Of a stretch of DNA of 64,000 nt, positions 9,489-62,201 are shown piece by piece. The stretch lies in assembly GCA_020161655.1 (NCBI GenBank), contig JAIUPC010000004.1:124001-188000 (forward strand). Direction: 5' to 3'. The DNA is from Pseudomonadota bacterium. Lineage in GTDB: Bacteria > Pseudomonadota > Alphaproteobacteria > Rhodobacterales > Rhodobacteraceae. Each line of letters begins with the position of its first letter. Position 1 is the first letter of the stretch. The position numbers were made by a program, and so were the translations under genes. The notes under the pieces are model-generated. The model searched no databases. It worked only from the letters and a program-made list of their open reading frames with translations, and was not told the DNA's origin.

Positions 9489-9532
9489 CGGATGCTCCTC
9501 GTGTTGCGGAGAAGCTAGACGCAGAAGTATAT

Positions 9533-9557: not shown

Positions 9558-9577
9558 TTTGATTCAGTGGAATTGAA

Positions 9578-42906: not shown

Positions 42907-43776
42907 TCAGTCCGGCGCGAGGTTCCGGGCCACGTCGAAGAAGGCCTTCACCAGCTTTCCCGACGCCCGCTCGCCGAGGCAGATCAGGGCCTCGTCCATC
43001 AGGACCGGCGGCGCGTCGATCTCGATCGGGTGGAGCCGCGCATCCGAACCGAACTCGGCGCGGGAGACGAAGCCGATGCCGGCGCCCGAAGCGACGATCT
43101 CTCGCACCGCCTCGCGGCCCTCGGCCTCGATCGAGGGCTTCAGTTCGACGTGAAGCTCGGCTGCGAGGTTTTCCAGCTTGAACCGGGTCTTTGATCCGCG
43201 CTCGCGCAGGACCAGCGGATGCTTTGCGAGGTCACCCAGCGGCAGCTTCCGTTCGCCGGCCAGCGGATGGGTGTTGGCGACGAAGGCGATGATCGGCGAG
43301 GAGTTCAGCTTCAGCACCTCGAAATCGCGCGCCTCGGGTATCTCGCCAAGCACACCGATTTCCGCCTCATAGGCGAAGAGGCTGGCGATGACCGTATCGG
43401 TGTTGCCGGAGCGGACCGTGACCTGCACGCCGGGATACTTCTGCCGGAAGGTCGCCATGATGTGGAGCAGATGGTGCGCGGCGTCGGCGACGATGCGCAG
43501 GGTTCCGGCCCGCAAGGCGCGCGATTCAGAGAGAAGGTCGTGCGCCTGCTGTTCGGTGTCGAACATGCGGTGGGTGATTTCCAGAAGCCGCTCACCCGGT
43601 CGGGTCAGCGTCACCTGCTTCTTGTGGCGATTGAAGAGCAGCACCTCATATTCTTCTTCCAGCTTGCGCACCTGGTCGGAGATGGCGGGCTGGGTGAGGA
43701 AAAGCGCTTCGGCGGCGCGCGAAAAGCCGCCGGTGATCGCGACATAGTGGAAGGCACGGAGCTGGACATAGCGCAT
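42907..43776 (-). CDS. LysR-family regulator of the aminoethylphosphonate locus
   Basis: The 289-residue protein has the LysR winged helix (LRAFHYVAITGGFSRAAEAL, then TQPAISDQVRKLEEEYEV) and an effector domain with SGNTDTVIASLFAYEAEIGV and VASGAGIGFVSRAEFG. It is divergent from the phosphonate genes with a 100-bp gap and is of the type usually found beside phnW-phnA-phnY genes, where it activates the operon in response to a phosphonate rather than to phosphate shortage. That this one senses AEP or phosphonoacetaldehyde is inference from position. Confidence 0.93.
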   Translation of the reverse strand: MRYVQLRAFHYVAITGGFSRAAEALFLTQPAISDQVRKLEEEYEVLLFNRHKKQVTLTRPGERLLEITHRMFDTEQQAHDLLSESRALRAGTLRIVADAAHHLLHIMATFRQKYPGVQVTVRSGNTDTVIASLFAYEAEIGVLGEIPEARDFEVLKLNSSPIIAFVANTHPLAGERKLPLGDLAKHPLVLRERGSKTRFKLENLAAELHVELKPSIEAEGREAVREIVASGAGIGFVSRAEFGSDARLHPIEIDAPPVLMDEALICLGERASGKLVKAFFDVARNLAPD

Positions 43777-43876
43777 GGCGGTGATCCATCATTGAAATCT
43801 ATACACGCATTGAAACTAACGAATTGACATATGTAAAGGGTGCGCAGAGGTTTTGCCCTTCAGGAGGGCCGCCAAG
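43777..43876. promoter_or_regulatory. Divergent promoter region of the phosphonate locus
   Basis: The 100 bp between the LysR start and the transporter start are AT-rich, with two ATTGAAA motifs (in ATTGAAATC near 43791 and ATTGAAACT near 43809) and TTGACATATGTAAAG near 43824. These fit LysR half-sites and a promoter element. The AGGAGG ribosome site of the transporter lies at its right end. Confidence 0.45.
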
Positions 43877-45538
43877 ATGCAATTTTCCATGATCCTGCTG
43901 CATCTGGCCGGTGCCGCGCTGCTCTTGCTCTATGCGGTCAATCTGGTGCGCACCGGGGTGGAGCGTGCCTGTGGCGGGGTGCTGCGCACCTTTCTCGGCG
44001 GCGCGAGGGGCGGCACCCTCGGGTCGGCGGCGTCGGGCATCGCGATGGCGGTGATGCTGCAAAGCTCGACGGCGGTGGCGATGCTCGCCTGCGGTTTCGC
44101 GGCGAGCGGGCTCCTGGCGGCGGCGAGCGGCCTTGCCCTGCTTCTCGGTGCCGATCTCGGCTCGGCGCTCGTCGTCCGCATCCTTTCCTTCGACCTTGGC
44201 TGGTTGATCCCCCTTTGCATCCTTGTGTGCGGTATCCTGCATCTGAAGGTGCCGGGCCAGAAAGCGCGCGAAAGCGGTCGCATCATCCTTGGCATCGGCT
44301 TCGTCCTCTTGTCGCTGAAGCTTATCGGCGAGGCGACCGGCCCCCTGCGCGAGGCTGCCTTCCTGCCCGCGATCTCAGGCTACCTCGCTCGGGATTTCGC
44401 CACCGCCTTCCTGATCGGGGTCATGTTCACCTGGGCGATCCATTCCAGTGTCGCCGCCGTCCTGATGCTGGCGGCCTTCGCCGGGCATGGGCTGGTCCCG
44501 CTTGAGGCCGCGGTTCCGATCATGCTTGGCGCCAATGTCGGCAGCGGCCTTATCGCCTTCGGCCTGTCGCGCGGGCTTGACAGGAAGGCGCAGCGGCTGA
44601 CCGCCGGCAACCTCATGTTCCGGCTTGCCGGGGCGCTGGCCGCGCTCCTCGCCGTTGAAAACTTCGGTCTTCCGCTGGAATTCCTCGGCAGCCACGCCGG
44701 GGCGGCGCTGGTCAATCTCCACGTCATCTTCAATGCGGGCCTTCTTGTCCTGTGCCTGCCGTTCGCCGGCCCGATGGCGAAACTGATGACCCGGCTTCTG
44801 CCAGACCTTGTGGCAAGCGACGGTTCGCCCGGCCAGCACCGTCGGTCGGTGCTGGACGCGAGTGTTGTCGGCACGCCGAGGCTGGCGCTCGCCAGCGTGA
44901 CGCGCGAACTCCTCAGGATGGGGGAACTGATCCAGCGGATGTATGCGCCGATCATGGAGCTTTACCAGAACGGCGGCAGGGAAGAGATTCAGCGCCTGCG
45001 CAAGATCGACGAAGAGGTGAACGACGCCCATACCGCGATCAAGCTTTACGTCGCCCAGGTGAATGCCGGTGGCCTCAGCCTTGATGAGGCGCAGCGTGGG
45101 ATCGAGCTGACGGATGTGGCGATCAACCTTGAGCATATCGGCGACATCATCGCCAAGACCCTGCTGGTTCTGGCCGAAGAGCGCGCGGCAAAGAAGCTGC
45201 GCTTTTCTGGCGATGGCTGGGAAGAGCTGCGCGCCCTGCATGAGCGGGTGATGGAGAACCTGCAGCTTGCGCTCAATGTGCTGATCTCCAACGACGTCGG
45301 GTCGGCCCGGCAACTGGTGGCCGAGAAGGAGCATGTCCGGTCGATGGAGCGCGACAGCCATGAGCGTCACCTCGGCCGTTTGCAGGCTGGGAAGGTCGAA
45401 AGCATCGAGACGAGCGACCTGCATCTTGAGACGCTGAGGGCGCTGAAGGAGATCAACTCGCTTCTGGTGACGGTCGCCTATCCGCTGCTGACCCAGACCG
45501 GAGACCTGCTTTCCAGCCGTCTGGCGCGGATTGCCTAG
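43877..45538 (+). CDS. Na+/phosphate cotransporter family protein (NptA-like) with C-terminal PhoU-like domain
   Basis: The 553-residue protein starts at the ATG at 43877, nine bases after AGGAGG. The first 320 residues are hydrophobic with the inverted Na/Pi repeats: the first reads GIAMAVMLQSSTAVAMLACG, the second FTWAIHSSVAAVLMLAAFAG, in which the usual Gln of QSS is His. The last 200 residues are helical with two PhoU-like parts (LIQRMYAPIMELYQ, DVAINLEHIGDIIAKTLLVL). It is the first gene of the phosphonate operon. PhnA releases free phosphate in the cell, so this protein may export surplus phosphate or exchange it, rather than import it; the direction is inference. Confidence 0.92.
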   Translation: MQFSMILLHLAGAALLLLYAVNLVRTGVERACGGVLRTFLGGARGGTLGSAASGIAMAVMLQSSTAVAMLACGFAASGLLAAASGLALLLGADLGSALVVRILSFDLGWLIPLCILVCGILHLKVPGQKARESGRIILGIGFVLLSLKLIGEATGPLREAAFLPAISGYLARDFATAFLIGVMFTWAIHSSVAAVLMLAAFAGHGLVPLEAAVPIMLGANVGSGLIAFGLSRGLDRKAQRLTAGNLMFRLAGALAALLAVENFGLPLEFLGSHAGAALVNLHVIFNAGLLVLCLPFAGPMAKLMTRLLPDLVASDGSPGQHRRSVLDASVVGTPRLALASVTRELLRMGELIQRMYAPIMELYQNGGREEIQRLRKIDEEVNDAHTAIKLYVAQVNAGGLSLDEAQRGIELTDVAINLEHIGDIIAKTLLVLAEERAAKKLRFSGDGWEELRALHERVMENLQLALNVLISNDVGSARQLVAEKEHVRSMERDSHERHLGRLQAGKVESIETSDLHLETLRALKEINSLLVTVAYPLLTQTGDLLSSRLARIA

Positions 45539-45641: not shown

Positions 45642-46856
45642 ATGAGCGTTGAGCAGAAAATCGAGGTGGCAACAGCGCCTGACGCCGTTTTCGAAGCGCC
45701 GGCGCTGGGCGAGCCCTATCTTCTGACGCCCGGCCCGCTGACCACTTCCTATGCCGTCAAGCAGGCCATGCTGCGCGACTGGGGCTCATGGGACGCTGAC
45801 TTCCGCGCCATGACCGCCGACCTCCGCCGCAGGCTTCTGGCGCTGACCGGCGACCGGGTGGGTGCCTATGACTGCGTGCCGATACAGGGGTCGGGGTCCT
45901 ACTGCGTCGAGGCGATGCTGGGGTCGTTCGTGCCGAAGGACGGCAAGGTCCTGGTGCTGGCCAACGGCGCCTACGGGCTGCGCGCGGCGCAGACGATGCA
46001 GTATCTTGGCCGTGCCCATACGCTGATCGACAAGGGCGACTATCTGCCGCCGCGCGGCGATGAGGTGGCAAGGGCGCTCGACGCCGACCCTGCAATCACC
46101 CATGTGATCGCCATTCATTGCGAGACAAGCTCCGGCATCCTGAACCCGGTGAAGGAAATCGCCGATGTCGTGCTGGCGAAGGGGCGCAAGCTTCTGGTCG
46201 ATTCGATGAGCGCGTTCGGCGCGGTCGATCTCGACGTGAACGACATTCCCTATGAGGCGATGGTTTCTTCCGCCAACAAGTGCATCGAGGGCGTGCCGGG
46301 CTTCGGTTTCGTCATCACGAAGAAGACGGCGCTGGAGGCTGCCAAGGGCAACAGCCATTCGCTGTCGCTCGATGTTCACGCGCAATGGGCGACGATGGAA
46401 AAGACCGGTCAGTGGCGCTTCACGCCGCCAACCCATGTGGTGGCCGCCTTCATCGAGGCGCTGAAGATGCATGAGGCCGAAGGCGGCGTGCCGGCGCGTG
46501 GCGCCCGCTACACCGGCAACCGCGACGTGATGGTCGCCGGGATGCGCGAGCTTGGGTTCGAGACACTTCTGGCCGACAACTGGCTGTCGCCGATCATCGT
46601 CACATTCTTCTGCCCGGCGGACGAGAAGTTCGATTTCACACGCTTCTATGATCTGATGAAGGACAAGGGCTTCATCATCTATCCCGGCAAGCTGACGGCG
46701 GTGGAATCGTTCCGCATCGGCTGCATCGGCCGCATGGATGCCCATGTCATGCGCCGGGTCGTCGAGGCCGCGCGCCAATCTCTTGACGAAATGGGCGTCA
46801 CCGACGCTTCGCCGCCGCAAGCTGCGCTCGACGAACGCGCCAAGCTTGCCGGTTGA
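45642..46856 (+). CDS. phnW: 2-aminoethylphosphonate:pyruvate transaminase
   Basis: PhnW transfers the amino group of 2-aminoethylphosphonate to pyruvate, giving phosphonoacetaldehyde and alanine. The 404-residue protein is a class V PLP aminotransferase with LLTPGPLTTS (27-36), RDWGSWD (45-51), the PLP aspartate in LLVDSMSAFGAVD (Asp187) and the Schiff-base lysine Lys213 in SSANKCIEGVPGFGFV. It is longer than usual (about 365 residues) because of some 22 extra N-terminal and 15 extra C-terminal residues. A CCGGAGG site precedes the ATG. The genes for oxidation and hydrolysis of the product follow directly. Confidence 0.96.
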   Translation: MSVEQKIEVATAPDAVFEAPALGEPYLLTPGPLTTSYAVKQAMLRDWGSWDADFRAMTADLRRRLLALTGDRVGAYDCVPIQGSGSYCVEAMLGSFVPKDGKVLVLANGAYGLRAAQTMQYLGRAHTLIDKGDYLPPRGDEVARALDADPAITHVIAIHCETSSGILNPVKEIADVVLAKGRKLLVDSMSAFGAVDLDVNDIPYEAMVSSANKCIEGVPGFGFVITKKTALEAAKGNSHSLSLDVHAQWATMEKTGQWRFTPPTHVVAAFIEALKMHEAEGGVPARGARYTGNRDVMVAGMRELGFETLLADNWLSPIIVTFFCPADEKFDFTRFYDLMKDKGFIIYPGKLTAVESFRIGCIGRMDAHVMRRVVEAARQSLDEMGVTDASPPQAALDERAKLAG

Positions 46857-46881: not shown

Positions 46882-48141
46882 ATGAACCAGATATCTCCCG
46901 TCAGCGTCCTGGCCAATGGCCGCAACTACGCCTGGCCGCGCGTGCCTGCCATCGCCATCTGTCTGGACGGCTGCGAGCCTGCCTATCTCGACGAGGCGAT
47001 CAAGGCCGGGCTGATGCCCGCGCTGGAACGGATCAAGGCCAAGGGCACGGTCAGGACCGCGCATTCGGTGATCCCGTCCTTCACCAATCCGAACAACCTT
47101 TCCATCGCCACGGGCCGCCCGCCGGCGGTTCACGGCATTTGCGGCAACTACCTTTTCAACCCCGAGACGGGCGAAGAGGTGATGATGAACGATCCGAAGT
47201 TCCTGCGCGCCCCGACCGTCTTCAAGGCCTTCTACGACGCGGGCGCCAAGGTCGCCGTCGTCACCGCCAAGGACAAGCTGCGCGCCCTTCTCGGTCATGG
47301 CCTGAAGTTCGACGAAGATCGCGCGATCTGCTTTTCCTCGGAAAAGTCGGACACCACGACCAAGGCGGCGAACGGCATCGACAACGCCTCGGAATGGCTC
47401 GGCCTGCCGGTGCCGGAGGTCTATTCCGCCGAGCTTTCGGAGTTTGTCTTCGCCGCCGGCGTCAAGCTTTTGAAGGAATGGCGGCCGGATGTCATGTACC
47501 TGACCACGACCGATTACGTGCAGCACAAGTATGCGCCGGGCGTGAAACAGGCGAATGACTTCTACGAGATGTTCGACAAGTATCTCGACCAGCTCGACCG
47601 GCTTGGTGCCGTGATCGTCGTCACCGCCGACCACGGCATGAAGCCCAAGCACCATGCCGACGGTTCGCCCAACGTCGTTTATGTGCAGAACCTGATGGAC
47701 GAATGGCTGGGAAAGGACGCCGCCCGCGTGATCCTGCCGATCACCGACCCCTATGTGGTGCATCACGGCGCGCTGGGTTCCTTCGCCACCGCCTATCTGC
47801 CGGAAGGCGCCGACCGCGCGGCGATCATCGAAAAGCTGAAGCAGGTCGAAGGCATCACCGTCGTCCTTGGCCGCGAGGAGGGCTGCGCGAGCTTTGAACT
47901 GCCCGAAGACCGCATGGGCGACATCATCATGGTCTCGGGCGAGAACAAGACCATTGGCACATCGGAACACCGCCACGACCTCGCGGCGCTGAACGAGCCG
48001 CTGCGCTCGCATGGAGGGCTGACCGAACAGGCGGTGCCCTTCATCACCAACCGGGTACTCGGGGATCAGCCCGGTGCACCGCAGCTGCGCAACTTCGACG
48101 CCTTCTACTACGCGGTGATGGCGGCTGCGCAGCCGGGTTAA
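46882..48141 (+). CDS. phnA: Phosphonoacetate hydrolase
   Basis: PhnA splits phosphonoacetate into acetate and phosphate. The 419-residue protein is an alkaline-phosphatase-superfamily zinc enzyme. The two-metal site is complete, at the positions I recall for the Sinorhizobium meliloti enzyme: Asp29 (CLDGCEP), nucleophile Thr68 (PSFTNPNN), Asp211 and His215 (TTDYVQHKYAPG), Asp250 and His251 (TADHGMKPK) and His377 (RSHGGLTEQ). The ATG at 46882 follows AGGAAAGC and lies 25 bp after phnW. Together with phnW and phnY it forms the PhnW-PhnY-PhnA route, in contrast to the PhnX (phosphonatase) route. Confidence 0.97.
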   Translation: MNQISPVSVLANGRNYAWPRVPAIAICLDGCEPAYLDEAIKAGLMPALERIKAKGTVRTAHSVIPSFTNPNNLSIATGRPPAVHGICGNYLFNPETGEEVMMNDPKFLRAPTVFKAFYDAGAKVAVVTAKDKLRALLGHGLKFDEDRAICFSSEKSDTTTKAANGIDNASEWLGLPVPEVYSAELSEFVFAAGVKLLKEWRPDVMYLTTTDYVQHKYAPGVKQANDFYEMFDKYLDQLDRLGAVIVVTADHGMKPKHHADGSPNVVYVQNLMDEWLGKDAARVILPITDPYVVHHGALGSFATAYLPEGADRAAIIEKLKQVEGITVVLGREEGCASFELPEDRMGDIIMVSGENKTIGTSEHRHDLAALNEPLRSHGGLTEQAVPFITNRVLGDQPGAPQLRNFDAFYYAVMAAAQPG

Positions 48142-48278: not shown

Positions 48279-49736
48279 ATGAACAAGCAGGATACCACCA
48301 TGAAGGTCCGCCATGAACCGATGCGCATCGCCGGCACGAAGGTGGATGCCGAAGGAACGCTCGCCGTCCACTATCCCTACACCAACGCGATTGTCGGCAC
48401 CGTGCCGGCGGGCAATGCCGAACATGCGCGCCGCGCCTTCGAGATCGCCGCGAGTTACACGCCGAAGCTGACCCGCTATGACCGCCAGAAGATCCTCCTG
48501 AAAACCGCCGAGCTTCTGAACGCCCGCAAGGAGGAAATCTCTGACCTCGTGACGCTGGAGCTTGGCATCTCCAAGCAGGATTCGCTTTATGAGGTCGGCC
48601 GCGCCTTCGACGTCTATACGCTGACCGGGCAGATGGTCATCCAGGACGATGGCCAGATCTTTTCCTGCGACCTGACCCCGCATGGCAAGCAGCGCAAGAT
48701 CTTCACCACGCGCGAACCGCTGATCGGCGCGATCTCGGCGATCACGCCCTTCAACCATCCCCTGAACATGGTGTCGCACAAGGTCGCCCCCGCCATCGCC
48801 ACCAACAATTGCGTGGTGCTGAAGCCCACCGAACTGACGCCGATGACCGCGCTTGTGCTGGCCGACATTCTTTACGAGGCCGGCCTGCCCCCGGAAATGC
48901 TGTCGGTCGTGACCGGCTGGCCGCAGGACATCGGCAACGAGATGATCACCAATCCCAACATCGACCTCATCACCTTTACCGGCGGCGTGCCGGTCGGCAA
49001 GCTGATCGCGTCAAAGGCCGGCTACAAGCGCCAGATCCTTGAGCTTGGCGGCAATGACCCGCTGATCGTGCTGAACGACCTCTCGGACGAGGATCTGGCG
49101 AAGGCCGCCGACCTTGCCGTGGCCGGTGCCACCAAGAACTCCGGTCAACGCTGCACGGCGGTGAAACGCATTCTGGTGCAGGAAAAGGTGGCCGATCGCT
49201 TCGTGCCGCTGGTGCTGGAGCGGGCAAAAAGGCTGAAGTTCGGTGATCCGATCGACCGGGCCACCGAGCTTGGCACCGTGGTCCATGAACGCGCCGCCAA
49301 GCTTTTCGAGGACCGCGTCCAACTGGCCGCCGAAGAGGGGGCGGAGATCCTTTACAACCCGGGTCGTCAGGGCGCGCTCCTGCCGCCCATCGTGGTCGAC
49401 CGGGTTCGGCATTCCTCCGAGCTTGTCATGGAGGAAACCTTCGGGCCGATCATCCCGATCATCCGCGCGCCGGACAATGACGACGAACTGATCGCGCTGT
49501 CGAACTCTACTGCTTTCGGTCTTTCCTCGGGCGTCTGCACCAACGATTTCCGCCGGATGCAGAAGTATATCGCCGGTCTGAAGGTCGGCACCGTCAACAT
49601 CTGGGAAGTGCCCGGCTACCGCATCGAGATGAGCCCCTTCGGCGGCATCAAGGATTCAGGCAATGGCTACAAGGAAGGCGTCATCGAGGCGATGAAATCC
49701 TTCACCAACGTGAAGACCTTCTCGCTGCCCTGGTGA
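48279..49736 (+). CDS. phnY: Phosphonoacetaldehyde dehydrogenase
   Basis: PhnY oxidises phosphonoacetaldehyde to phosphonoacetate with NAD+. The 485-residue protein is a full aldehyde dehydrogenase with Asn159 (TPFNHPLN), the base Glu255 (ILELGGNDP) and the nucleophile Cys292 ([11 protein letters not shown]). Its position between phnA and the transporter genes and the length fit PhnY proteins. The ATG at 48279 lies eight bases after AAGGAG; a second in-frame ATG seven codons later is possible. The 137-bp gap after phnA holds no gene that I can see. Confidence 0.95.
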
Positions 49737-49820: not shown

Positions 49821-52298
49821 ATGACCCTGACCTCTCCCTTCCCGACCCAGGCCCGCGTCGTCATCATCGGCGGCGGCATCATCGGCTGTTCGGTCGCCTA
49901 TCATCTGACCAAGCTCGGCTGGACCGATGTCGTCCTCCTGGAACAGGGACAGTTGAGCGGCGGCACCACCTGGCACGCCGCCGGGCTCGTCGGTCAGTTG
50001 CGAAGCCAGTCGAGCATGACGACGCTGATCCGCTATTCGACGGAGCTTTACAGCACGCTCGAAGCCGAGACAGGTCTTGCGACCGGCTGGAAGAACTGCG
50101 GTTCGGTCAGTGTCGCGCGCACCGAGGACCGCATGACGCAGCTGAAGCGCACGGCGGCCTCGGCGCGCGCCCAGGGGATTGCCGTCGAGCTGATCTCGCC
50201 CGAGGAGGCGGGACAGCTCTGGCCGCCGATGGCGACCGGTGATCTCGTCGGCGCGGTGTGGCTGCCGGGCGACGGCAAGGCCAACCCAACCGACCTGACG
50301 CAGTCCCTAGCCCGGGGCGCCCGCACCGGCGGCGCAAGGATCGTCGAACGGGTAAGGGTGACGGGGATTTCGACGAAGGACGGCCGCGCCACCGGCGTGG
50401 AAACCGACCGGGGCCATGTCGCGGCCGAGATCGTGGTCAATTGCGCCGGCCAATGGGCGCGGAAAGTAGGCCTCATGTGCGGTGTCTCGGTGCCGCTGCA
50501 CTCGGCCGAGCACATGTATATCGTTACCGGCAAGATCGAGGGCGTGCATCCCGATCTGCCGGTCATGCGCGATCCCGACGGCTACACCTACTACAAGGAA
50601 GAGGTGGGCGGCCTCGTCATGGGCGGATTTGAGCCGCATGCGAAGCCCTGGGGGATGGACGGCATCCCTGACGATTTCGAATTCGCGCTCCTCCCCGATG
50701 ATTGGGACCAGTTCGAGATACTGATGGAAAACGCCCTGGTGCGGGTGCCGCAACTCGCAGTGGCCGAGATCAAGAAATTCTACAACGGCCCCGAAAGCTT
50801 CACGCCGGACAACAATTTCATTCTCGGCGAAGCGCCCGAGCTGAAGAACTTCTTCGTCGGTGCTGGCTTCAACTCGATGGGCATCGCCAGTGCAGGTGGC
50901 GCGGGCCGGGCGCTTGCCGAATGGATCGTCAATGGCGAGCCGACGATGGATCTCTGGCCGGTTGACATCCGCCGCTTTGCGCCCTTCAACAACAATAAGA
51001 CGTTCCTGCACGATAGGGTGAAAGAGACGCTGGGCCTGCATTACGCGATGCCCTGGCCGAACCGCGAACTCGACTCCGCCCGGCCGCTGCGCTGCTCTCC
51101 CTTCTATGAACGGCTGAAGGCGAAAGGTGCTGTCTTCGGCTCGAAGATGGGATGGGAGCGTGCCAACTGGTTTGCCCCGGAAGGCACGGCGGCTGCGACA
51201 GAATACAGCTTTGGCCGCCAGAACTGGCACGATGCCGTCGGCCGCGAGATGAAGGCGACCCGCGAGGCCGCCGCCGTCTTCGACCAGACCTCCTTCGCCA
51301 AGCTTCTATTGCAGGGGCGCGACGCCTGTGCCGCGCTGAACCGCATCTGCGGCGCCAATGTCGACGTGGAGATTGGCCGCAGCGTCTATACCGGCGTATT
51401 CAATGCGCGTGGCGGCTATGAAAGCGACCTGACGGTGCTGCGGCTGGCCGCCGACAGGTTCCTGATCGTCAGTGGATCGGCGCAGCCGGTGCGCGATTTC
51501 GACTGGATCAGCCGCAACATTCCGGCGGACGCGAAAGCCGAACTGACCGACGTGACCTCGGCCTATGCGGTGCTTGGCCTGATGGGCCCCTGCTCCCGCG
51601 AGATCCTGTCGCGCGTCACCTCGGCGGACCTGTCGGACGAGGCGTTCCCCTTTTCGACCAACCGTCAGCTTGATGTCGGCGCCGGCCTCTGCATCGCCAA
51701 CCGGATGACCTATGTCGGCGAGCTTGGCTGGGAACTGATCGTGCCGGTCGAGTTCGCGGCAGGCGTCTATGACGCGCTTTTCGCCGCCGGCAGGGCATCC
51801 GGACTCAGGGACGCTGGCTACTACGCGCTTGAGGCGCTCAGGCTTGAAAAGGGCTATCGGGCCTGGAGCCGCGAACTGACGCCCGACATCAATGCCTGGC
51901 AGGCGGGTCTTGGCTTCGCCGTGGACCTGCAAAAGCCGGGCAGTTTCATCGGCCAGCAGGCGCTGGTCGCTGCCAAGGGTAAGCCCATCACGAAAAAGGT
52001 GGTGCAGTTCACTCTAGACGACGGCGATCCGGTTCTCTGGGGCGGCGAACTCGTCCTGCGCGACGGCGTGCCGGTCGGCGAGGTCCGCTCCGCTGCCTAT
52101 GGCCACAGTCTGGGACGGTCGGTGGCGCTGTCCTATGTCGAACATGGCGCGGGCATCGACAACGGCTTCCTCTCGACGGGGCGGTTCGAGATTGACCTCG
52201 CCGGTGTGCGACATGCCGCACGGGTTCATCTTCGGCCCGCTTACGACCCGAAGGGGGACAGGATCAGGCCGCAGCCGCTGACGGCCTCGGCCGCGTGA
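49821..52298 (+). CDS. Dimethylglycine/sarcosine dehydrogenase-like flavoprotein with C-terminal folate-binding (GCV_T) domains
   Basis: The 825-residue protein begins with an FAD-binding DAO domain (VVIIGGGIIGCSVAYHL, residues 13-29) and carries TWHAAGLVGQLR, in which His52 matches the histidine that binds FAD covalently in dimethylglycine dehydrogenase. After a linker domain (about 370-430) comes a full aminomethyltransferase-like part: DQTSFAKLLLQG, NARGGYESDLTVLRL with the folate-binding Asp, MTYVGELGWELIVP, and the C-terminal GCV_T_C part. Such enzymes demethylate N-methyl amines and pass the one-carbon unit to tetrahydrofolate. Between phnY and the AEP importer, the likely substrate is an N-methylated aminoethylphosphonate. 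Flavoenzymes that oxidise N-methyl-AEP are known, but I do not recall one with this folate tail. Confidence 0.92.
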   Translation: MTLTSPFPTQARVVIIGGGIIGCSVAYHLTKLGWTDVVLLEQGQLSGGTTWHAAGLVGQLRSQSSMTTLIRYSTELYSTLEAETGLATGWKNCGSVSVARTEDRMTQLKRTAASARAQGIAVELISPEEAGQLWPPMATGDLVGAVWLPGDGKANPTDLTQSLARGARTGGARIVERVRVTGISTKDGRATGVETDRGHVAAEIVVNCAGQWARKVGLMCGVSVPLHSAEHMYIVTGKIEGVHPDLPVMRDPDGYTYYKEEVGGLVMGGFEPHAKPWGMDGIPDDFEFALLPDDWDQFEILMENALVRVPQLAVAEIKKFYNGPESFTPDNNFILGEAPELKNFFVGAGFNSMGIASAGGAGRALAEWIVNGEPTMDLWPVDIRRFAPFNNNKTFLHDRVKETLGLHYAMPWPNRELDSARPLRCSPFYERLKAKGAVFGSKMGWERANWFAPEGTAAATEYSFGRQNWHDAVGREMKATREAAAVFDQTSFAKLLLQGRDACAALNRICGANVDVEIGRSVYTGVFNARGGYESDLTVLRLAADRFLIVSGSAQPVRDFDWISRNIPADAKAELTDVTSAYAVLGLMGPCSREILSRVTSADLSDEAFPFSTNRQLDVGAGLCIANRMTYVGELGWELIVPVEFAAGVYDALFAAGRASGLRDAGYYALEALRLEKGYRAWSRELTPDINAWQAGLGFAVDLQKPGSFIGQQALVAAKGKPITKKVVQFTLDDGDPVLWGGELVLRDGVPVGEVRSAAYGHSLGRSVALSYVEHGAGIDNGFLSTGRFEIDLAGVRHAARVHLRPAYDPKGDRIRPQPLTASAA

Positions 52299-52492: not shown

Positions 52493-53512
52493 ATGAAAAC
52501 CACCATGAAATCCACGCTTGCCGGTGTCGCGCTTTTGCTTGGCGCAGGCGCTGCCCATGCCGGCGAACTGACTGTCTACACCGCAATCGAGGCCGAAGAC
52601 CTTGAGCGTTACGCCGCGGCCTTCAATGCCGAATATCCGGACATCAAGATCAACTGGGTGCGCGACTCCACCGGCGTCGTGACGGCGAAGCTACTTGCGG
52701 AAAAGGACAACCCGCAGGCGGACGTCGTCTGGGGCCTCGCCGCAACCTCGCTCCTGATCCTGAAGACCGAAGGCATGCTGGAACCCTACGCGCCGGCCGG
52801 GCTTGAGAACATCAAGGCGGCGTTCAAGGATGGCGACAGTCCGCCCGCCTGGGTCGGAATGGACGCCTGGTCCGCCGCCATCTGCTTCAACACTGTCGAG
52901 GGCGAGAAGAAGGGCCTTATGGCACCCACAAGCTGGGCGGACCTGACCAAGCCGGAATACAAAGGCTCGATCATCATGCCTAACCCGGCCTCCTCGGGCA
53001 CCGGCTATCTCGATGTTTCCAGCTGGTTGCAGATCTTCGGCGAGGAAGAGGGCTGGAAGTTCATGGACGGCCTTCATGAAAACATCGCCGCCTACACCCA
53101 CTCCGGCTCCAAGCCCTGCAAGATGGCGGCTGCCGGTGAAGCGCCGATCGGCATCTCGTTCGAGTTCCGCGCCGCGAAGTCCAAGAAGGACGGTGCACCG
53201 CTGGAGATCGTGTTCCCGACCGAAGGTCTCGGCTGGGACATGGAGGCCTCGGGCATCGTCGCCGGCACCGACAATCCTGAAGACGCGCAAAAGCTGATCG
53301 ACTGGTCGATCTCAAAGGCGGCGATGGAGCAGTACAATGTCGGCTACGCGGTCCTTGCGATGGACGGCGTCGCCAAGGAGGTCGAGTTCCTTCCCGCCGA
53401 CCTCGAATCGAAGCTCATCAAGAACGACTTCGAATGGGCCGCGAACAACCGCGCGAAGATCCTCGACGAATGGACCAAGCGCTACGACTCGAAGTCGGAG
53501 CCGAAGACCTGA
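52493..53512 (+). CDS. aepX: 2-aminoethylphosphonate ABC transporter substrate-binding protein
   Basis: The 339-residue protein has a signal peptide of 23 residues (MKSTLAGVALLLGAGAAHA at its core) and the fold of iron(III)/AEP-type class II binding proteins: GELTVYTAIEAEDLERYAAA, INWVRDSTGVVTAKLLAEKD, VVWGLAATSLLILK, WVGMDAWSAAICFNT, NPASSGTGYLDVSSWLQIFG. The blocks are those of AepX, the AEP-binding protein of the marine AepXVW system. It is followed by a hairpin and then ATPase and fused-permease genes, the AepXVW order, and preceded by AEP-degrading enzymes, which makes the substrate assignment strong. Confidence 0.93.
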   Translation: MKTTMKSTLAGVALLLGAGAAHAGELTVYTAIEAEDLERYAAAFNAEYPDIKINWVRDSTGVVTAKLLAEKDNPQADVVWGLAATSLLILKTEGMLEPYAPAGLENIKAAFKDGDSPPAWVGMDAWSAAICFNTVEGEKKGLMAPTSWADLTKPEYKGSIIMPNPASSGTGYLDVSSWLQIFGEEEGWKFMDGLHENIAAYTHSGSKPCKMAAAGEAPIGISFEFRAAKSKKDGAPLEIVFPTEGLGWDMEASGIVAGTDNPEDAQKLIDWSISKAAMEQYNVGYAVLAMDGVAKEVEFLPADLESKLIKNDFEWAANNRAKILDEWTKRYDSKSEPKT

Positions 53513-53527
53513 AGCCCACACTTCATG

Positions 53528-53555
53528 ACGGGCGCCGCGAAACGCCGGCGCCCGT
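53528..53555 (+). terminator. Hairpin between aepX and aepV, probable attenuator
   Basis: A ten-base perfect stem (ACGGGCGCCG at 53528-53537 with its complement at 53546-53555) encloses an eight-base loop and runs into TTTCAC. It starts 15 bases after the aepX stop and probably lowers expression of the membrane components relative to the binding protein. Confidence 0.65.
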
Positions 53556-53607
53556 TTCACAACCACCGGATGGCAGTGACCTGCCTTCAACCGCAAGGGA
53601 TGTTGTC

Positions 53608-54783
53608 ATGAGGCACGAGAGGCTCGCGGGCGCTCAGGCCATTCCGCCGGAGACCATGCCGATGGATGCGCAAGTAGCGAAGAACGACTATCTGACGATC
53701 GCTGGCCTGTGGAAGAACTTCGGCGACTTCACCGCGCTCAGGGATGTTTCCCTGACGGTGCGCGAGGGCGAGTTCGTCTGCTTCCTCGGGCCATCGGGCT
53801 GCGGCAAGACCACGCTTCTGCGCGCCATCGCCGGGCTTGACCTGCAGACGCGCGGCGAAATCCGGCAAGGTGACAGGGATATCTCCACCCTGCCGCCATC
53901 ACAGCGCGATTACGGCATCGTCTTTCAGTCCTACGCGCTGTTTCCCAACCTGACGATCGAGAAGAACATCGCCTTCGGGCTGGAAAACACCAGGCGCCCG
54001 AAAGCCGAGATTGCCGCCCGCGTGACCGAGCTTCTGCAGCTTGTCGGGCTGCCGGCCCAGGCGAAGAAATACCCCGCCCAGCTTTCCGGTGGCCAGCAGC
54101 AGCGCATCGCACTTGCCCGCGCCATCGCCATCAACCCCGGCCTCCTGCTTCTGGATGAGCCGCTCTCGGCACTTGACGCCAAGGTGCGGGTGCATCTGCG
54201 CCATGAGATCAAGGAATTGCAGCGCAAGCTTGGCGTCACCACCATCATGGTGACGCATGACCAGGAAGAGGCGCTTTCGATGGCCGACCGCATCGTGGTG
54301 ATGAACCACGGCGTGATCGAACAGGTCGGCACCCCGACCGAGGTCTACCGGCATCCGCAGACGCTGTTCGTTGCCGACTTCATCGGCGAAACCAACAAGC
54401 TGCCGGCGAAAGTGGCGGAGGGCGGCAAGATCGCTGTCGGCGACACCGAGTTTCGCTGTGGCCGGCACGGGCTTGCTGTCGGCGCCGAGGCGGTTGCCGT
54501 GATCCGGCCGGTCGACATCATCCCCCATGGCGCCGGTGCGCCTTCGGAAGACATGCCCGCCGGCACGGGCGGGCACGAAAACCTGATCGACGCGCATGTC
54601 GAGGATATCGAGTTTCTCGGTGCCTTCTGGCGGGTACGGCTTTCTGCCGCGCGGCTGGGTGACCGTATCCTTGTCGCCGACTTCTCCATCAACGCCGTGC
54701 GCCGGCTGAACATTGCGCCCGGCGTCGACATGCAGATCGAACTGCCGCAGGAACGCCTGCTCGTCTATCCGAAGGGGGCATGA
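53608..54783 (+). CDS. aepV: 2-aminoethylphosphonate ABC transporter ATPase
   Basis: The 391-residue protein starts at the ATG at 53608, nine bases after AAGGGA; a longer frame overlapping aepX is rejected. It has Walker [12 protein letters not shown] (about 65-75), Q-loop FQSYALFPNL, signature LSGGQQQRIALARAI, Walker [13 protein letters not shown] and the His-switch MVTHD, then a TOBE-like domain (AVGAEAVAVIRPVDIIPH). The sequence is of the iron/phosphonate/spermidine ATPase group. It lies between aepX and the permease gene, with three bases to the latter. Confidence 0.94.
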   Translation: MRHERLAGAQAIPPETMPMDAQVAKNDYLTIAGLWKNFGDFTALRDVSLTVREGEFVCFLGPSGCGKTTLLRAIAGLDLQTRGEIRQGDRDISTLPPSQRDYGIVFQSYALFPNLTIEKNIAFGLENTRRPKAEIAARVTELLQLVGLPAQAKKYPAQLSGGQQQRIALARAIAINPGLLLLDEPLSALDAKVRVHLRHEIKELQRKLGVTTIMVTHDQEEALSMADRIVVMNHGVIEQVGTPTEVYRHPQTLFVADFIGETNKLPAKVAEGGKIAVGDTEFRCGRHGLAVGAEAVAVIRPVDIIPHGAGAPSEDMPAGTGGHENLIDAHVEDIEFLGAFWRVRLSAARLGDRILVADFSINAVRRLNIAPGVDMQIELPQERLLVYPKGA

Positions 54784-54786
54784 GGG

Positions 54787-56793
54787 ATGGCTGCCACCGA
54801 TGCCGTATTGCCGCCGGGCCGCCCGCTCCGCATGAAGCTGGACCGTGACGCCTGGACCAAGCGCGCCGTGATGATCGTCATCGGCCTTTACCTCGTCGCG
54901 GCACTTGCCCTGCCGCTTTACACGATGATGTCGAAATCCTTCACCACCTACCGGTTCGACCTCACGCGCTATGAGTTTCAGGTGGATGACGGCGCCGGAA
55001 ACTGGGGGCCGGTGGTCTCAGCGCAGGCGCTGAACGACCAGCTTGGCGTCTTTGCCGCCGACGATCTCCGCGCCAGTTCCGACAGCCGGCTGGCCCCGAC
55101 CAAGCTTTTTCCCGACTTCAGTTTCCGCTCGCCAGTGAAGTACCGCATCCGCGGGTTGGGCAACGCGCCGTTCCTCGTCGGCCTCGACCTGAAGCGCGGC
55201 GGCGACTGGGTGGAGCTTGATTCCAACACCTTCCGCCGGGTGAATTTCCGCCCCGTCACCGCCCGCGGCCTCGGCAACTACATCACCTATTTCTCAAGCC
55301 CGACGCTCGTTGGCTCCATCGCCAATTCGCTGACCATCGCCGTCATCTCCACCATCGTGACGATCGGCGTGGCCTTCGGCGTCGCCTATGCGCTCAGCCG
55401 CTCGGCGATGCCCTTCAAGGGGTTCTTCCGGCTGGCGATGGTGCTGCCGATCCTCGTGCCCTCGCTCTTGCCGGGCATCGCGCTGATCTATCTTTTCGGC
55501 AATCAGGGCTTTCTGAAGGACTGGCTCTTCGGCGCCTCGATCTATGGGCCGTTGGGCATCGTCATCGGCTCGGTCTTCTTCACCCTGCCCCATGCGCTCA
55601 TCATCATCTCGACGGCGCTGTCGATCTCGGACCAGCGCCATTACGAGGCGGCGGAGTCGCTCCGCGCCTCGGGCTGGCGCACCTTCTGGACGGTCACGGT
55701 GCCGGGGGCGCGCTATGGTCTCATCTCAGCGGCCTTCGTCGTGTTCACGCTGGTCATCACCGATTTCGGCCTGCCGAAGGTGGTCGGCGGCCAGTACAAC
55801 GTGCTTGCCGTCGACATCTACAAGCAGGTCATCGGCCAGCAGAACTTCGAGATGGGGGCGGTCGTCTCGGTGGTGCTCCTGATTCCGGCGATCTTCGCCT
55901 TCGTCGTCGACCGCATGGTCACAAGGCGGCAGGTGTCGCTACTGTCGGCGCGGTCGGTGCCTTACCAGCCCAAGGCCAACCGCCGGGCCGATACGATCGC
56001 CTTCCTCTGGTGCGCGCTGACGGCGATCTTCGTCATCGGCATCCTCGCCACCTGCCAGTTCGCGGCGCTGGTGAAGTTCTGGCCCTATGACCTGACGCTG
56101 AGCCTGAAGAACTATGCCTTCAACCGCATGGATGGTGGCGGTTGGGCCTCCTACGGCAATTCGCTCACGCTGGCGTCGGCCACTGCGATTGCCGGCGCGG
56201 TCATCGTCTTTGCCGGGGCCTACATGGTCGAAAAGACCGAAGGCTTCGCGGCGGGGCGCAACCTTTTCCACTTCCTCGCAATGCTGCCGATGGCGGTGCC
56301 GGGGCTGGTGCTGGGGCTCGCCTACATCTTCTTCTTCAACGACCCATCGAACCCCTTGAATTCCATCTACGGCACGATGGCGATCCTCGTCATCTGCACC
56401 GTCACCCACTTCTACACGGTGGCGCATCTGACGGCGCTGACCGCGCTGAAACAGATGGACCGGGAGTTCGAGCCGGTCGCCGCATCGCTGCACCAGCCTT
56501 TCCACAAGCTCTTCTTCCGGGTCACGCTGCCGGTCTGCCTGCCGGCGGTGCTCGACATCTTCATCTATCTCTTCGTCAATGCGATGACGACGGTCTCGGC
56601 GGTGGTGTTCCTTTATTCGGCGCATACGCAGCTGGCTTCGGTCGCCGTGCTCAACATGGACGACGCGGGCGATGTCGCGCCGGCGGCGGCGATGGGGATG
56701 ATGATCTTCTACACCAACGTCGCCGCACGCCTGATCCATGCCGCCGTATCGCGGGGTCTTCTGGCGAAAACGCAAGCCTGGCGCGTGCGCTGA
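54787..56793 (+). CDS. aepW: 2-aminoethylphosphonate ABC transporter permease, two fused permease domains
   Basis: The 668-residue protein holds two permease modules of six helices each, so one chain makes the whole channel. The two EAA loops are YEAAESLRASGWRTFWTVTV (about residue 285) and FEPVAASLHQPFHKLFFRVT (about 560). A periplasmic insertion of about 100 residues (roughly 60-165) with charged and aromatic residues lies after the first helix. This fused form is typical of AepW and FbpB-type permeases. It ends only nine bases from the stop of the converging kduD gene. Confidence 0.94.
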   Translation: MAATDAVLPPGRPLRMKLDRDAWTKRAVMIVIGLYLVAALALPLYTMMSKSFTTYRFDLTRYEFQVDDGAGNWGPVVSAQALNDQLGVFAADDLRASSDSRLAPTKLFPDFSFRSPVKYRIRGLGNAPFLVGLDLKRGGDWVELDSNTFRRVNFRPVTARGLGNYITYFSSPTLVGSIANSLTIAVISTIVTIGVAFGVAYALSRSAMPFKGFFRLAMVLPILVPSLLPGIALIYLFGNQGFLKDWLFGASIYGPLGIVIGSVFFTLPHALIIISTALSISDQRHYEAAESLRASGWRTFWTVTVPGARYGLISAAFVVFTLVITDFGLPKVVGGQYNVLAVDIYKQVIGQQNFEMGAVVSVVLLIPAIFAFVVDRMVTRRQVSLLSARSVPYQPKANRRADTIAFLWCALTAIFVIGILATCQFAALVKFWPYDLTLSLKNYAFNRMDGGGWASYGNSLTLASATAIAGAVIVFAGAYMVEKTEGFAAGRNLFHFLAMLPMAVPGLVLGLAYIFFFNDPSNPLNSIYGTMAILVICTVTHFYTVAHLTALTALKQMDREFEPVAASLHQPFHKLFFRVTLPVCLPAVLDIFIYLFVNAMTTVSAVVFLYSAHTQLASVAVLNMDDAGDVAPAAAMGMMIFYTNVAARLIHAAVSRGLLAKTQAWRVR

Positions 56794-56802
56794 GACGCTG
56801 GC

Positions 56803-57543
56803 CTAACGTGCCATCCAGCCGCCATCGACATTGATGATGGCGCCGTGAAGATAGGCGGCGGCGGGGGCGCAGAGGAAGACGGCGGTACCGGCGATGTCTT
56901 CGGCGCGGCCCCAGCGGCCGGCGGGGATGCGGTCGAGGATGGCGCGGTTGCGGGCCTCGTCAGCGCGCAGCGCCTCGGTGTTGCTGGTCTCGATATAGCC
57001 CGGCGCAATGGCGTTGACGTTGATGCCCTTGGCCGCCCATTCATTCGCCATCAGCTTCGTCAGCCCGGCCACGCCATGCTTGCTGGCGGTATAGCTCGGC
57101 ACCCGGATGCCGCCTTGAAAGGACAAAAGCGAAGCGATGTTGACGATGCTGCCCGGCGCACCGCGCGCAAGGCAAGCCCGGGCGAAGGCCTGACAGGTGA
57201 AGAACAGCGCCTTCAGGTTCACGTCGATCACGTCGTCCCAGTCGGCCTCGGTGAAATCGACAGAGTCGGCGCGGCGGATGATGCCGGCGTTGTTGACGAG
57301 GATGTCGAAACCGGCGCCGGCGAAGACATCGCGCGCCGCCATCGGGTCGGCGAAATCGAGCGTCAGGTAACTGCCCCTGCCGCCCGCAGCGGCGATCAGC
57401 GCCAGCGTCTCGTCGCAGTCACGCCGGGCGGCTGAGATCACCTCGGCCCCGGCCTTGGCGAGCCCGAGGGCGATGGCCTGACCAAGCCCGGTGTTCGCGC
57501 CGGTCACCAGCGCCTTGCGGCCTTCAAGCGAAAACGGGTTCAC
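56803..57543 (-). CDS. kduD: 2-dehydro-3-deoxy-D-gluconate 5-dehydrogenase (KduD)
   Basis: KduD reduces 2,5-diketo-3-deoxygluconate to 2-keto-3-deoxygluconate with NADH. The 246-residue SDR begins NPFSLEGRKALVTGANTGLG, the usual KduD start, with NNAG (84-87), Ser138 and the YTASK pair Tyr151/Lys155, and ends GAIINVDGGWMAR as KduD does. It starts at a GTG that overlaps the kduI stop (GTGA) seven bases after GGAGG. With kduI it brings unsaturated uronates into the 2-keto-3-deoxygluconate route; the kinase and aldolase for the next steps are not in the window. Confidence 0.94.
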   Translation of the reverse strand: MNPFSLEGRKALVTGANTGLGQAIALGLAKAGAEVISAARRDCDETLALIAAAGGRGSYLTLDFADPMAARDVFAGAGFDILVNNAGIIRRADSVDFTEADWDDVIDVNLKALFFTCQAFARACLARGAPGSIVNIASLLSFQGGIRVPSYTASKHGVAGLTKLMANEWAAKGINVNAIAPGYIETSNTEALRADEARNRAILDRIPAGRWGRAEDIAGTAVFLCAPAAAYLHGAIINVDGGWMAR

Positions 57544-58364
57544 CGCAGATCCTCCGGTTGGATGAAGTCCATGTCGGTATAGTCGACATTGTCGCCGGCC
57601 ATGGCCCAGATGAAGGTATAGCAGCCGATCCCGGCGCCGGAATGGATCGACCAGGGCGGCGAGATCGCTCCTTCCTCATTGCCGATGAAAAGGTGCCGGG
57701 TTTCCTGCGGTTCGCCCATCAGGTGCAGGACGCGGGCCTGCGGCTCCATCCCGAAGTAAAGGTAGGCCTCCATCCGCCGGTCATGGATGTGGCTCGGGAT
57801 CGTGTTCCAGACCGAGCCTTCCTCAAGCATGGTATAGCCAAGGATGAGCTGGCAGCTTTCCATCACCAGAGGGTGGATGAACTGGTTGATGGTGCGCTTG
57901 TTGGAGGTTTCCGCCGCGCCCAGCTTCACCTCCTTGCTGTCGGCCGGCCGGATCAGCCGGTTGGGGCAGGTCCGATGCGCGGGCGTTGAAGTCTGGTAGA
58001 AGCGGCCATCGCCTGCGAAAGTGACCGGCCCCGCGCCCATGCCGAGGTAGAGGACATCGCCGCGGTTGAGCGTGAAGGTCTCGCCACCGGCGCTGACGGA
58101 GCCGGTCGCGCCGATATTCACGATGCCCATCTCGCGCCGGTCGAGAAAACCGGGGGTCTTCGTCTCGGCCACCTGATCGAGCGTCAGGCTGCCGCCGGCG
58201 GGCACCGCGCCGCCCATCACGAAGCGGTCGTAATGGGTGTAGATGAGGCGGATCTCTCCATCGGCGAAGAGGTCGTCGGCAAGGAAGTTTGCGCGGAGGG
58301 TCTCGGTATCCATCGCCTTCGCATGGGCGGGATGGACGGCGTGGCGGGTTTCGACATGGAGCAT
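57540..58364 (-). CDS. kduI: 5-dehydro-4-deoxy-D-glucuronate isomerase (KduI)
   Basis: KduI isomerises 4-deoxy-L-threo-5-hexosulose uronate, the open form of the unsaturated uronic acid released by GH88 enzymes, to 2,5-diketo-3-deoxygluconate. The 274-residue cupin has the zinc ligands His192, His194 and Glu199 (IPSHIHDRRMEAYLYF) and His241 (PPWSIHSGAG). Other KduI blocks are RREMGIVNIG and HPLVMESCQLILGYTMLEEG. The ATG follows AAAGGA. The sulfatase gene lies 81 bp upstream on the same strand. Confidence 0.96.
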   Translation of the reverse strand: MLHVETRHAVHPAHAKAMDTETLRANFLADDLFADGEIRLIYTHYDRFVMGGAVPAGGSLTLDQVAETKTPGFLDRREMGIVNIGATGSVSAGGETFTLNRGDVLYLGMGAGPVTFAGDGRFYQTSTPAHRTCPNRLIRPADSKEVKLGAAETSNKRTINQFIHPLVMESCQLILGYTMLEEGSVWNTIPSHIHDRRMEAYLYFGMEPQARVLHLMGEPQETRHLFIGNEEGAISPPWSIHSGAGIGCYTFIWAMAGDNVDYTDMDFIQPEDLR

Positions 58365-58445
58365 GTCGGGGTCCTTTCAAAGTGCGGCGGCCAGCCCGGT
58401 GCCGCGAGGGCGGCATCGGTTCGGGCGGGCCGGTGGGTCTGGCGT

Positions 58446-59864: not shown

Positions 59865-60922
59865 GGCTTTCGGGGCGCTGCGATGGTGGCGCGGGTGACA
59901 AGCTCCACCCCCATGTTCATGCGCACGGTGCCGCGCGCGGCGTTGGTGCCGCGCGCGGCGTTGGTGATGCGCGCGAGAAGAAGCGTGGCCCCGGCGCGGC
60001 CAAGCTCTGCCCGGTCGATACGCATCGTGGTCAGGGGCGGGCGGGAACTGCCCGACAGCGCCACATCGTCGATGCCGATGATCGAGAAATCATCGGGGAC
60101 CGCGAAGCCCACGGACTGGAGCCCCTGCATCACGCCGAAGGCCACCATGTCGGAGCTGCAGAAGAACGCGGTCACGTCCAGAAGCCGCCCGGCCTTGTGC
60201 GCGGCGATGACGGCGGCGCGGCCTTGCGTTTCGTCGAACCCCATCTCGCCCAGGTTCAGGACATGGCGCGCCGGGTCGAAGCCGAGGCCCGCCTCGGTCA
60301 TGGCGGTGCCGAAGCCTTCCAGCCGGCGCTGCATGGTCAGGCGGTGGGGCAGGGTGACATGCATGATGTTGCGATGGCCGGCGGCCAGAAGCTGCTGGGT
60401 CGCGAGCCAGCCCGCCGACCAGTTGTCAGGGAGCACGCAGTCAATCCGCATCGACCGGTCCATGCCGTTGATAAGCACCGCCGGCACGCCGGCATCGGCG
60501 ATGCGGGCGACAAGCCCGGTATCGTCAAGGCCGATGGCGATGACCGCGCCGCTGTCGGGATCGGCGAGGATATCGTCGATCTCGGCCTCGCCGCCCTCGT
60601 TCGACGGCGTGACGAGCCGCACCTCGACCGAAAGGCCGCCCGCTGCGCATTCCTCAAGCACGCCCTTGATGATGTCTTCGTAAAAGAGCGAATCCGAATA
60701 ATGCGCTGCGGGAATGACGATGGCGGCAGAGCCGACGCCCGCGCGCTGGAAGGCCCTGGCGGAGCGGCCCTGATAGCCAAGCCGGTCGGCGGCGGCCAGC
60801 ACGCGCTGACGGTTCTCCTCGCTGACGCCGCCGCGGTTGTTCAGGACCTTCGAGGCGGCGGCGACGGAAACGCCCGCCGCTTCGGCAATGTCGCGCAGGG
60901 TGGCGGTATGGGTGTCGGACAT
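59861..60922 (-). CDS. LacI-family transcriptional regulator of the uronide locus
   Basis: The 353-residue protein has the LacI N-terminal helix-turn-helix and hinge (TLRDIAEAAGVSVAAASKVL, residues 8-27, then RVLAAADRLGYQG) and a periplasmic-binding-protein-like sugar domain (AIVIPAAHYSDSLFYEDIIK, DDFSIIGIDDVALS). It lies between the GH88 gene and the sulfatase gene in one operon and probably represses that operon and the divergent importer. Near the C-terminus it contains a six-residue duplication (TNAARG twice) caused by a tandem 18-bp repeat. Confidence 0.94.
   Translation of the reverse strand: MSDTHTATLRDIAEAAGVSVAAASKVLNNRGGVSEENRQRVLAAADRLGYQGRSARAFQRAGVGSAAIVIPAAHYSDSLFYEDIIKGVLEECAAGGLSVEVRLVTPSNEGGEAEIDDILADPDSGAVIAIGLDDTGLVARIADAGVPAVLINGMDRSMRIDCVLPDNWSAGWLATQQLLAAGHRNIMHVTLPHRLTMQRRLEGFGTAMTEAGLGFDPARHVLNLGEMGFDETQGRAAVIAAHKAGRLLDVTAFFCSSDMVAFGVMQGLQSVGFAVPDDFSIIGIDDVALSGSSRPPLTTMRIDRAELGRAGATLLLARITNAARGTNAARGTVRMNMGVELVTRATIAAPRKP
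59930..59965. repeat. Tandem 18-bp duplication inside the lacI-type gene
   Basis: Two perfect copies of an 18-bp unit (59930-59947 and 59948-59965) lie head to tail in frame, duplicating the peptide TNAARG. Such a repeat can expand or contract by slippage without breaking the frame. Confidence 0.9.
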
Positions 60923-62156: not shown

Positions 62157-62201
62157 CGGCTTCCTCCTGAGGTTGGAATAACTTTCGTTCAACAAGAAAC
62201 T

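Follow-up and report, generated by a model that had tools for sequence, protein, structure and literature searches.

Results

The candidate gene and its protein

The window, i.e. the whole stretch of DNA analysed here, comprises 64,000 nucleotides from a genome of the Rhodobacteraceae (GenBank assembly GCA_020161655.1, contig JAIUPC010000004.1), and our interest lies in a gene on its plus strand that sits among genes for the catabolism of 2-aminoethylphosphonate (AEP) and whose product is a candidate demethylase of N-methyl-AEP. Translating 49821-52298 gives 825 codons and then a stop; the frame is open upstream to a GTG at 49737, yet in the 80 best relatives the alignment begins at residues 1-8 as counted from 49821. 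All four domains of the dimethylglycine dehydrogenase (DMGDH) type are present in this one chain, each above its Pfam cut-off:

49821..52298, plus strand: candidate N-methyl-2-aminoethylphosphonate demethylase, DMGDH-type flavoprotein, 825 amino acids (translation, Pfam, relatives)
49854..50924, plus strand: DAO (FAD-dependent oxidoreductase) domain, residues 12-368 (Pfam)
50931..51098, plus strand: FAO_M domain, residues 371-426 (Pfam)
51102..51920, plus strand: GCV_T folate-binding domain, residues 428-700 (Pfam)
51993..52247, plus strand: GCV_T_C barrel domain, residues 725-809 (Pfam)
49974..49976, plus strand: His52 of the covalent-FAD motif TTWHAAG, H in 89/89 clade sequences (alignment)
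50511..50513, plus strand: His231, opposite His225 of the catalytic dyad of dimethylglycine oxidase (DMGO; alignment to 1pj5)
50589..50591, plus strand: Tyr257, opposite DMGO Tyr259 of the same dyad (alignment to 1pj5)
51426..51428, plus strand: Asp536, opposite DMGO Asp552 (alanine in chain 3gsi), D in 89/89 clade sequences (alignment)

His52 aligns with the histidine of the HAAG/HAPG motif in solved relatives, and Tyr631 and Glu638 align with DMGO Tyr651 and Glu658, which, together with Asp552, we take to be folate-site residues. All six positions (His52, His231, Tyr257, Asp536, Tyr631 and Glu638) are invariant in the 89 sequences of the clade described below, a set that includes genomes present twice, such as that of Rhodovulum euryhalinum. 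The His-Tyr catalytic dyad is named in PMC5082570, where a study of His225 and Tyr259 is cited. Among the PDB chains, phmmer matched human DMGDH (5l46) with 496 bits, dimethylglycine dehydrogenase 4p9s with 493 and DMGO (1pj5) with 390, and among the NCBIfam matches listed (the best 25 of 36) no family is above its cut-off. With domain set, covalent-FAD histidine, dyad and folate-site residues all present, as in 5l46, 4p9s and 1pj5, the candidate is a member of the DMGDH/DMGO-type structural family. It differs from DMGDH and DMGO in forming a clade of its own, which is tied to phnWAY and has Cys93, His227 and Met353 as residues specific to it relative to the sister group.

The surrounding AEP cluster

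Around the candidate the genes follow the order lysR / nptA / phnW / phnA / phnY / candidate / phnS2TU2:

42907..43776, minus strand: LysR regulator of the AEP-catabolism subfamily TIGR03339 (above the TIGR03339 cut-off)
43853..45538, plus strand: Na/Pi symporter-like protein with PhoU domain (nptA), start uncertain (above the NF037997 cut-off)
45642..46856, plus strand: phnW, AEP-pyruvate transaminase (NCBIfam, above cut-off)
46882..48141, plus strand: phnA, phosphonoacetate hydrolase, start inferred, frame open from 46738 (NCBIfam, above cut-off)
48279..49736, plus strand: phnY, phosphonoacetaldehyde dehydrogenase (NCBIfam, above cut-off)
52493..53512, plus strand: phnS2 (aepX), binding protein of the AEP ABC transporter (NCBIfam, above cut-off)
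53434..54783, plus strand: phnT2, AEP ABC transporter ATPase, an open frame whose true start is probably further in (NCBIfam, above cut-off)
54787..56793, plus strand: phnU2, AEP ABC transporter permease (NCBIfam, above cut-off)

We guess that the symporter-like protein at 43853-45538 exports phosphate. Only 84 bases separate phnY from the candidate, and a simple consensus scan, a weak instrument, gave no promoter-like or terminator-like match on the plus strand in this gap, so that the two genes are likely to be co-transcribed; the same weak scan placed promoter-like matches before phnW and phnS2 (3 matches against 0.9 expected). A sequence-only reading of this DNA had described a complete dimethylglycine/sarcosine dehydrogenase layout, His52 included, encoded between phnY and aepXVW. 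Pfam and alignment bear out the layout, and NCBIfam the position between phnY and phnS2, with phnS2TU2 taken as equal to aepXVW.

Recurrence of the gene in AEP loci

A genome scan gave 242 relatives, the best 80 of which were taken as loci. At least one of phnW, phnA, phnY, phnS2, phnU2, pbfA and pbfF lies in the same locus in 70 of the 80, a figure that did not change under a stricter count, and at least one of the three enzyme genes phnW, phnA and phnY in 61. Taken singly, phnA and phnW each occur in 57 loci, phnY in 48, the Na/Pi gene in 37 and pbfA in 30, whereas the PhnS2 binding protein is found by best match in 42 and its wider binding-protein family in 51; all these are lower bounds because contigs end early in several loci. 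In 68/80 loci, a DMGDH-like gene has a DeoR-family regulator gene at most 700 bases away (e.g. at L026:9118-9921); none stands beside the gene in the window or in L021 (89% identical), where the arrangement of the window recurs, i.e. the gene sits inside the phnWAY run. Elsewhere the order varies by lineage: the clade gene precedes lysR, follows phnU2 or lies between phnY and phnS2, and L212 reads phnW, phnA, phnY, clade gene, pbfA, pbfF, followed by a more distant transporter. Such variation speaks for repeated selection of the linkage between the clade gene and the AEP pathway. In one relative locus (L205:5719-8159 and 8690-9693), both the clade gene and phnS2 are split into two matching pieces, a result of either sequencing error or decay.

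Two whole-genome family samples, which overlap partly with the 80 loci, were each searched twice, once with the candidate protein as query and once with the PhnA model. Among the 394 genomes of the window's family, nine including that of the window have a relative of at least 1209 bits; identity is 66-73% in the eight others, and the next match drops to 969 bits and 54%. PhnA is above its cut-off in 9/9 of these genomes compared with 53/394 overall; in eight, phnA lies on the same contig within 10 kb of the clade gene, and in the ninth, a draft, the clade gene adjoins phnS2TU2. Of the 297 genomes in the family of Mesorhizobium ciceri, 25 have a relative of at least 1273 bits (69-82% identity; next match 981 bits, 54%), and 24 of the 25 have PhnA compared with 55/297 overall. 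Here 18 have phnA at most 11 kb away on one contig with the clade gene; in the other seven it is on another contig (G401, G416, G681), at least 79 kb away (G402, G403, G411) or absent (G400). The last is a metagenome-assembled genome (MAG) in which the clade gene (L022) adjoins pbfA and pbfF, its transporter genes not being of the close PhnS2 type. Fisher tests of clade gene against phnA give p values of 8e-9 in the window's family and 4e-19 in that of M. ciceri, figures that treat genomes as independent, which they are not, and which therefore overstate the case.

Thus, the operon position is not peculiar to the window's genome, an option that we rejected since relatives across both families share the context. 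By its recurrent place in phnWX or phnWYA clusters the candidate is an ancillary enzyme of AEP clusters, and the linkage of this domain layout to phnW, phnA or phnY, which the sequence-only reading had proposed to look for, recurs in both families as well as in the 80 loci.

A separate clade with a conserved folate half

Could the candidate simply be an ordinary dimethylglycine or sarcosine dehydrogenase that happens to be located in this operon? It has the same domains, and the window's genome (4.1 Mb) encodes eight more full-length DMGDH-like proteins, nine with the candidate, including adjacent pairs at C1:202571-207511 and C2:164953-169766. In both families, however, clade members are at least 66% identical and other DMGDH-like proteins at most 55%, and the linkage to phnA extends across the clade. 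In a quick tree of 61 full-length proteins, thinned at 88% identity, the 34 clade rows form one group (SH-aLRT 98) that excludes the 54% relatives, the other paralogues of the window's genome and the second copies introduced below; a more careful tree of the DAO part supports the clade with 100/99, whereas long branches make the exact placement of several paralogues and of PbfC unsure. An origin inside DMGDHs that lack phosphonate neighbours is not what these trees give: the clade is separate, and its nearest relatives do have such neighbours.

In the phnA-positive genomes of the window's family, a count by eye put 1 of the 36 sister-group rows listed no more than 15 kb from phnA, and in that case the neighbouring phosphonate genes run the opposite way; we thus rejected the idea that any DMGDH-like gene tends to sit near phnA. 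Taken together, an ordinary DMGDH in a chance location seems highly improbable. The single row in question (L203:9639-12071, genome G323) is a DMGDH-like gene that is separated from phnY, 1 kb away and oppositely oriented, by an EamA-like gene of the phosphonate-associated kind. It is 57% identical to the paralogue of the window's genome at C6, and is either a chance neighbour or a separate recruitment.

Residues in which the clade departs from the sister group include Cys93, His227, Asn331, Met353 and Tyr668. GCV_T is retained in 89/89 clade sequences with gaps of at most 1.5%. The residue counts exclude rel_L164 and one second-copy frame (L053, start mis-called), trees and counts alike exclude rel_L144 (split frame), and L147, L150, L153 and L161, which had no usable frame, are in neither; rel_L166 was omitted from the sister group when domain identities were compared.

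A Rieske oxygenase and a second DMGDH-like protein in some relatives

Seven of the 80 loci, from Aminobacter (L027, L035, L053, L062), Shinella (L032, L046) and Ensifer (L073), encode a GbcA-like Rieske oxygenase, 82-88% identical to the one of L073 taken as reference. A second DMGDH-like protein is encoded in all seven as well; it shares 89-95% identity with its L062 counterpart and, in the six cases measured, 43-45% with the window protein. Rieske gene and second copy lie in the following stretches:

L062:3300-12475, Rieske oxygenase and second copy
L032:16882-20605, Rieske oxygenase and second copy

In L027 and L062, a reductase-like protein with a 2Fe-2S domain is encoded between the two, giving the order Rieske, reductase, second copy, DeoR and clade gene on one strand. 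Among the 297 genomes of the M. ciceri family, three have the second copy (at least 1691 bits), all of them with the clade gene within 5 kb and phnA in the genome. An AraC family with a GbdR-like tested member is present in 14/80 loci. In a further locus, L042, the Rieske match covers 76 residues only.

Other genes in the window

Directly downstream of the AEP genes, the minus strand of 56803-60922 encodes KduD and KduI together with a sulfatase and a regulator of the LacI family, a set that probably serves a sulfated uronate polysaccharide; the frame at 60972-62195 has no Pfam match. Encoded at 25613-28897 on the minus strand is an alpha-type protein of DNA polymerase III (1094 amino acids), which may, as we assume from its size, be of the DnaE2 mutagenesis type.

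Discussion

A DMGDH-type enzyme in an AEP cluster must deliver a product that feeds a pathway starting either at AEP (PhnW) or at phosphonoacetaldehyde (PhnY). N-methyl-AEP is reported to be common in nature and not usable by PhnW (PMC10590968). Judged from sequence and context, the candidate is on balance probably a folate-coupled demethylase that converts N-methyl-AEP into AEP for PhnW, as the sequence-only reading had suggested and as genomic context, phylogeny and the conserved folate and flavin residues favour; the four domains, the conserved residues, the recurrent linkage to phnWAY and the separate clade are all directly seen. A DMGDH-type flavoenzyme would here have been re-targeted to phosphonates. 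N-methyl-AEP, imported by the AEP transporter or by some other carrier, would be oxidised at its methyl carbon by a covalently bound FAD; the methylene so formed would travel inside the protein to the GCV_T half and react there with tetrahydrofolate, yielding 5,10-methylene-tetrahydrofolate and free AEP, and PhnW, PhnY and PhnA would convert the latter into acetate and phosphate. In this scheme we infer N-methyl-AEP as the substrate, demethylation rather than deamination, folate as the acceptor and the covalent attachment of FAD. Demethylation, as in DMGDH and MabO, better explains the candidate because the folate-dependent half and its key residues are kept in 89/89 clade sequences.

MabO, the 4-methylaminobutyrate demethylating oxidase of Arthrobacter nicotinovorans, converts N-methyl-GABA into GABA and methylene-tetrahydrofolate (PMC3891541). 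It provides a precedent, likewise in a catabolic operon, for removing an N-methyl group from a non-alpha amino acid in a folate-linked reaction, although its substrate is a carboxylate and its operon also contains purU and folD; the comparison with the candidate made here is one of reaction and gene context. Thus, the earlier suggestion that an enzyme of this kind had gone undescribed needs qualification, since MabO is already known for a non-alpha N-methyl amino acid and the clade gene itself may already count as 'pbfC'. For a folate or Rieske step acting on AEP, no report is among the open-access literature matches listed, main texts being the scope of this statement. The words folate, GCV and glycine cleavage are absent from the main text of the PbfC paper (PMC10590968), where DMGDH is the outgroup of a tree; in PMC10132767, DMGDH is one row of a table.

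The known enzymes in this position are PbfB, PbfC and PbfD, which resemble the candidate in their place in AEP clusters, their PF01266 domain and their proposed substrate, and which their authors never found together in one cluster (PMC10590968). A further DAO-like gene is present in only 1/80 loci at an E value of 1e-8 and in 5/80 at 1e-3 (three of these five are from Sinorhizobium, where the extra DAO gene is a distant one 5-10 kb off that S. meliloti 1021 has too), which fits the clade gene filling the PbfB/C/D slot. Since PbfC and PbfD, in this same slot, convert N-methyl-AEP into phosphonoacetaldehyde and methylamine (PMC10590968), the candidate might likewise oxidise the ethyl carbon, its folate half being a leftover. 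Moreover, the PbfC of Azospirillum sp. B510, encoded on plasmid pAB510a between phnW and pbfA and identified by this place and its cluster, has the candidate as its best match in the window's genome (146 bits, 31%), with three paralogues close behind at 127-133 bits.

A table of 2025 lists pbfA and pbfC for the clusters of M. ciceri, Shinella zoogloeoides and R. euryhalinum (PMC12366243). The only cluster DAO gene that we found in the corresponding regions of M. ciceri WSM1271 and R. euryhalinum DSM 4868 is the clade gene, and the cluster of S. zoogloeoides PQ7 has the clade gene and a second copy, with a further DAO-like gene about 8 kb beyond the latter. Because only DAO genes of this type were found in these clusters, the authors of that table may have counted the clade gene as pbfC, or they may have used other strains.

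The candidate is not PbfC itself, however, an identity that we rejected: Azospirillum PbfC is a protein of 415 amino acids with a DAO domain only and without GCV_T, and it falls outside the clade on a long branch, whereas the candidate has the folate half. PbfC and PbfD have no covalent flavin (PMC10590968), and by eye the Azospirillum sequence lacks a histidine where the candidate has His52 in its covalent-FAD motif. With the folate-site residues invariant in 89/89 sequences in addition, attack on the ethyl carbon with release of methylamine appears improbable for the candidate.

Folate-coupled demethylation could also be directed at a related aminophosphonate, such as N,N-dimethyl-AEP or N-methylated 1-hydroxy-AEP. 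The gene for the hydroxy-AEP lyase, pbfA, is present in 30/80 loci, and PbfD1 accepts dimethyl-AEP (PMC10590968). Yet pbfA was not seen in the other 50 loci, and no PbfA is above cut-off anywhere in the window's genome, which makes hydroxy-AEP an unlikely target there; the loci with a Rieske oxygenase, for their part, hold the second, diverged copy, which could take the dimethyl step. We consider such a related substrate unlikely, and of the mono- or dimethyl-AEP proposed by the sequence-only reading, the dimethyl compound looks more like the job of this second copy, which only some relatives possess.

Several observations weigh against N-methyl-AEP demethylation to AEP. Purified PbfC, PbfD1 and PbfD2 yield phosphonoacetaldehyde and methylamine, not AEP (PMC10590968), and for AepX of Stappia a high specificity for AEP is reported, the ligands listed including no methylated form. 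Unlike in the mabO operon, no folD, purU or other folate gene is among the recurrent neighbours, as judged by eye from shared families and not by a dedicated search. Mean pairwise identity within the clade is lower for GCV_T (0.724) than for DAO (0.822), a difference that is narrower in the sister group (0.679 vs 0.722). Finally, 10/80 loci have no marker gene in the stretch examined, two of these contigs being shorter than 7 kb, and 23 loci have no phnA: in the 20 of these checked genome-wide, i.e. all but L025, L089 and L094, each of which has phnW, phnA is present elsewhere in 14 and not above cut-off in six, all of them MAGs.

A Rieske oxygenase and a second DMGDH-like gene close to the clade gene suggest that trimethyl-AEP is demethylated stepwise. 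Tentatively, and again reading function from gene content, one may envisage a full run resembling glycine betaine catabolism (GbcAB, DMGDH, sarcosine oxidation), of which the lineage of the window would keep the last step only, inside its phnWAY run. The GbcA-like oxygenase and its reductase would remove the first methyl group, the second DMGDH-like enzyme the second and the clade enzyme the third, so that the last two demethylations would conserve one-carbon units as folate derivatives and supply PhnW with AEP. The seven loci thereby echo glycine betaine catabolism, but differ from it in their location in AEP clusters and in the score of the Rieske protein, 350 bits on the GbcA model (cut-off 670); the tested GbdR-like member of the AraC family likewise reaches 296.5 against a cut-off of 480. 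TmpA and TmpB also handle a methylated AEP, converting trimethyl-AEP into glycine betaine and phosphate; they are, however, two iron-dependent oxygenases that release phosphate directly. If the stepwise run exists, it would constitute a demethylation route for trimethyl-AEP, with S. meliloti 1021, whose clade gene on pSymB (1060537-1062981) encodes a relative 78% identical to the window protein, possessing the last step and Aminobacter the whole set.

With N-methyl-AEP demethylated by the clade enzyme, this compound would enter the pathway as AEP, and its one-carbon unit would be recovered rather than released as methylamine, i.e. with products other than those of PbfC. The scavenging of phosphorus would thus be tied to folate metabolism in rhizobia and marine Rhodobacterales.

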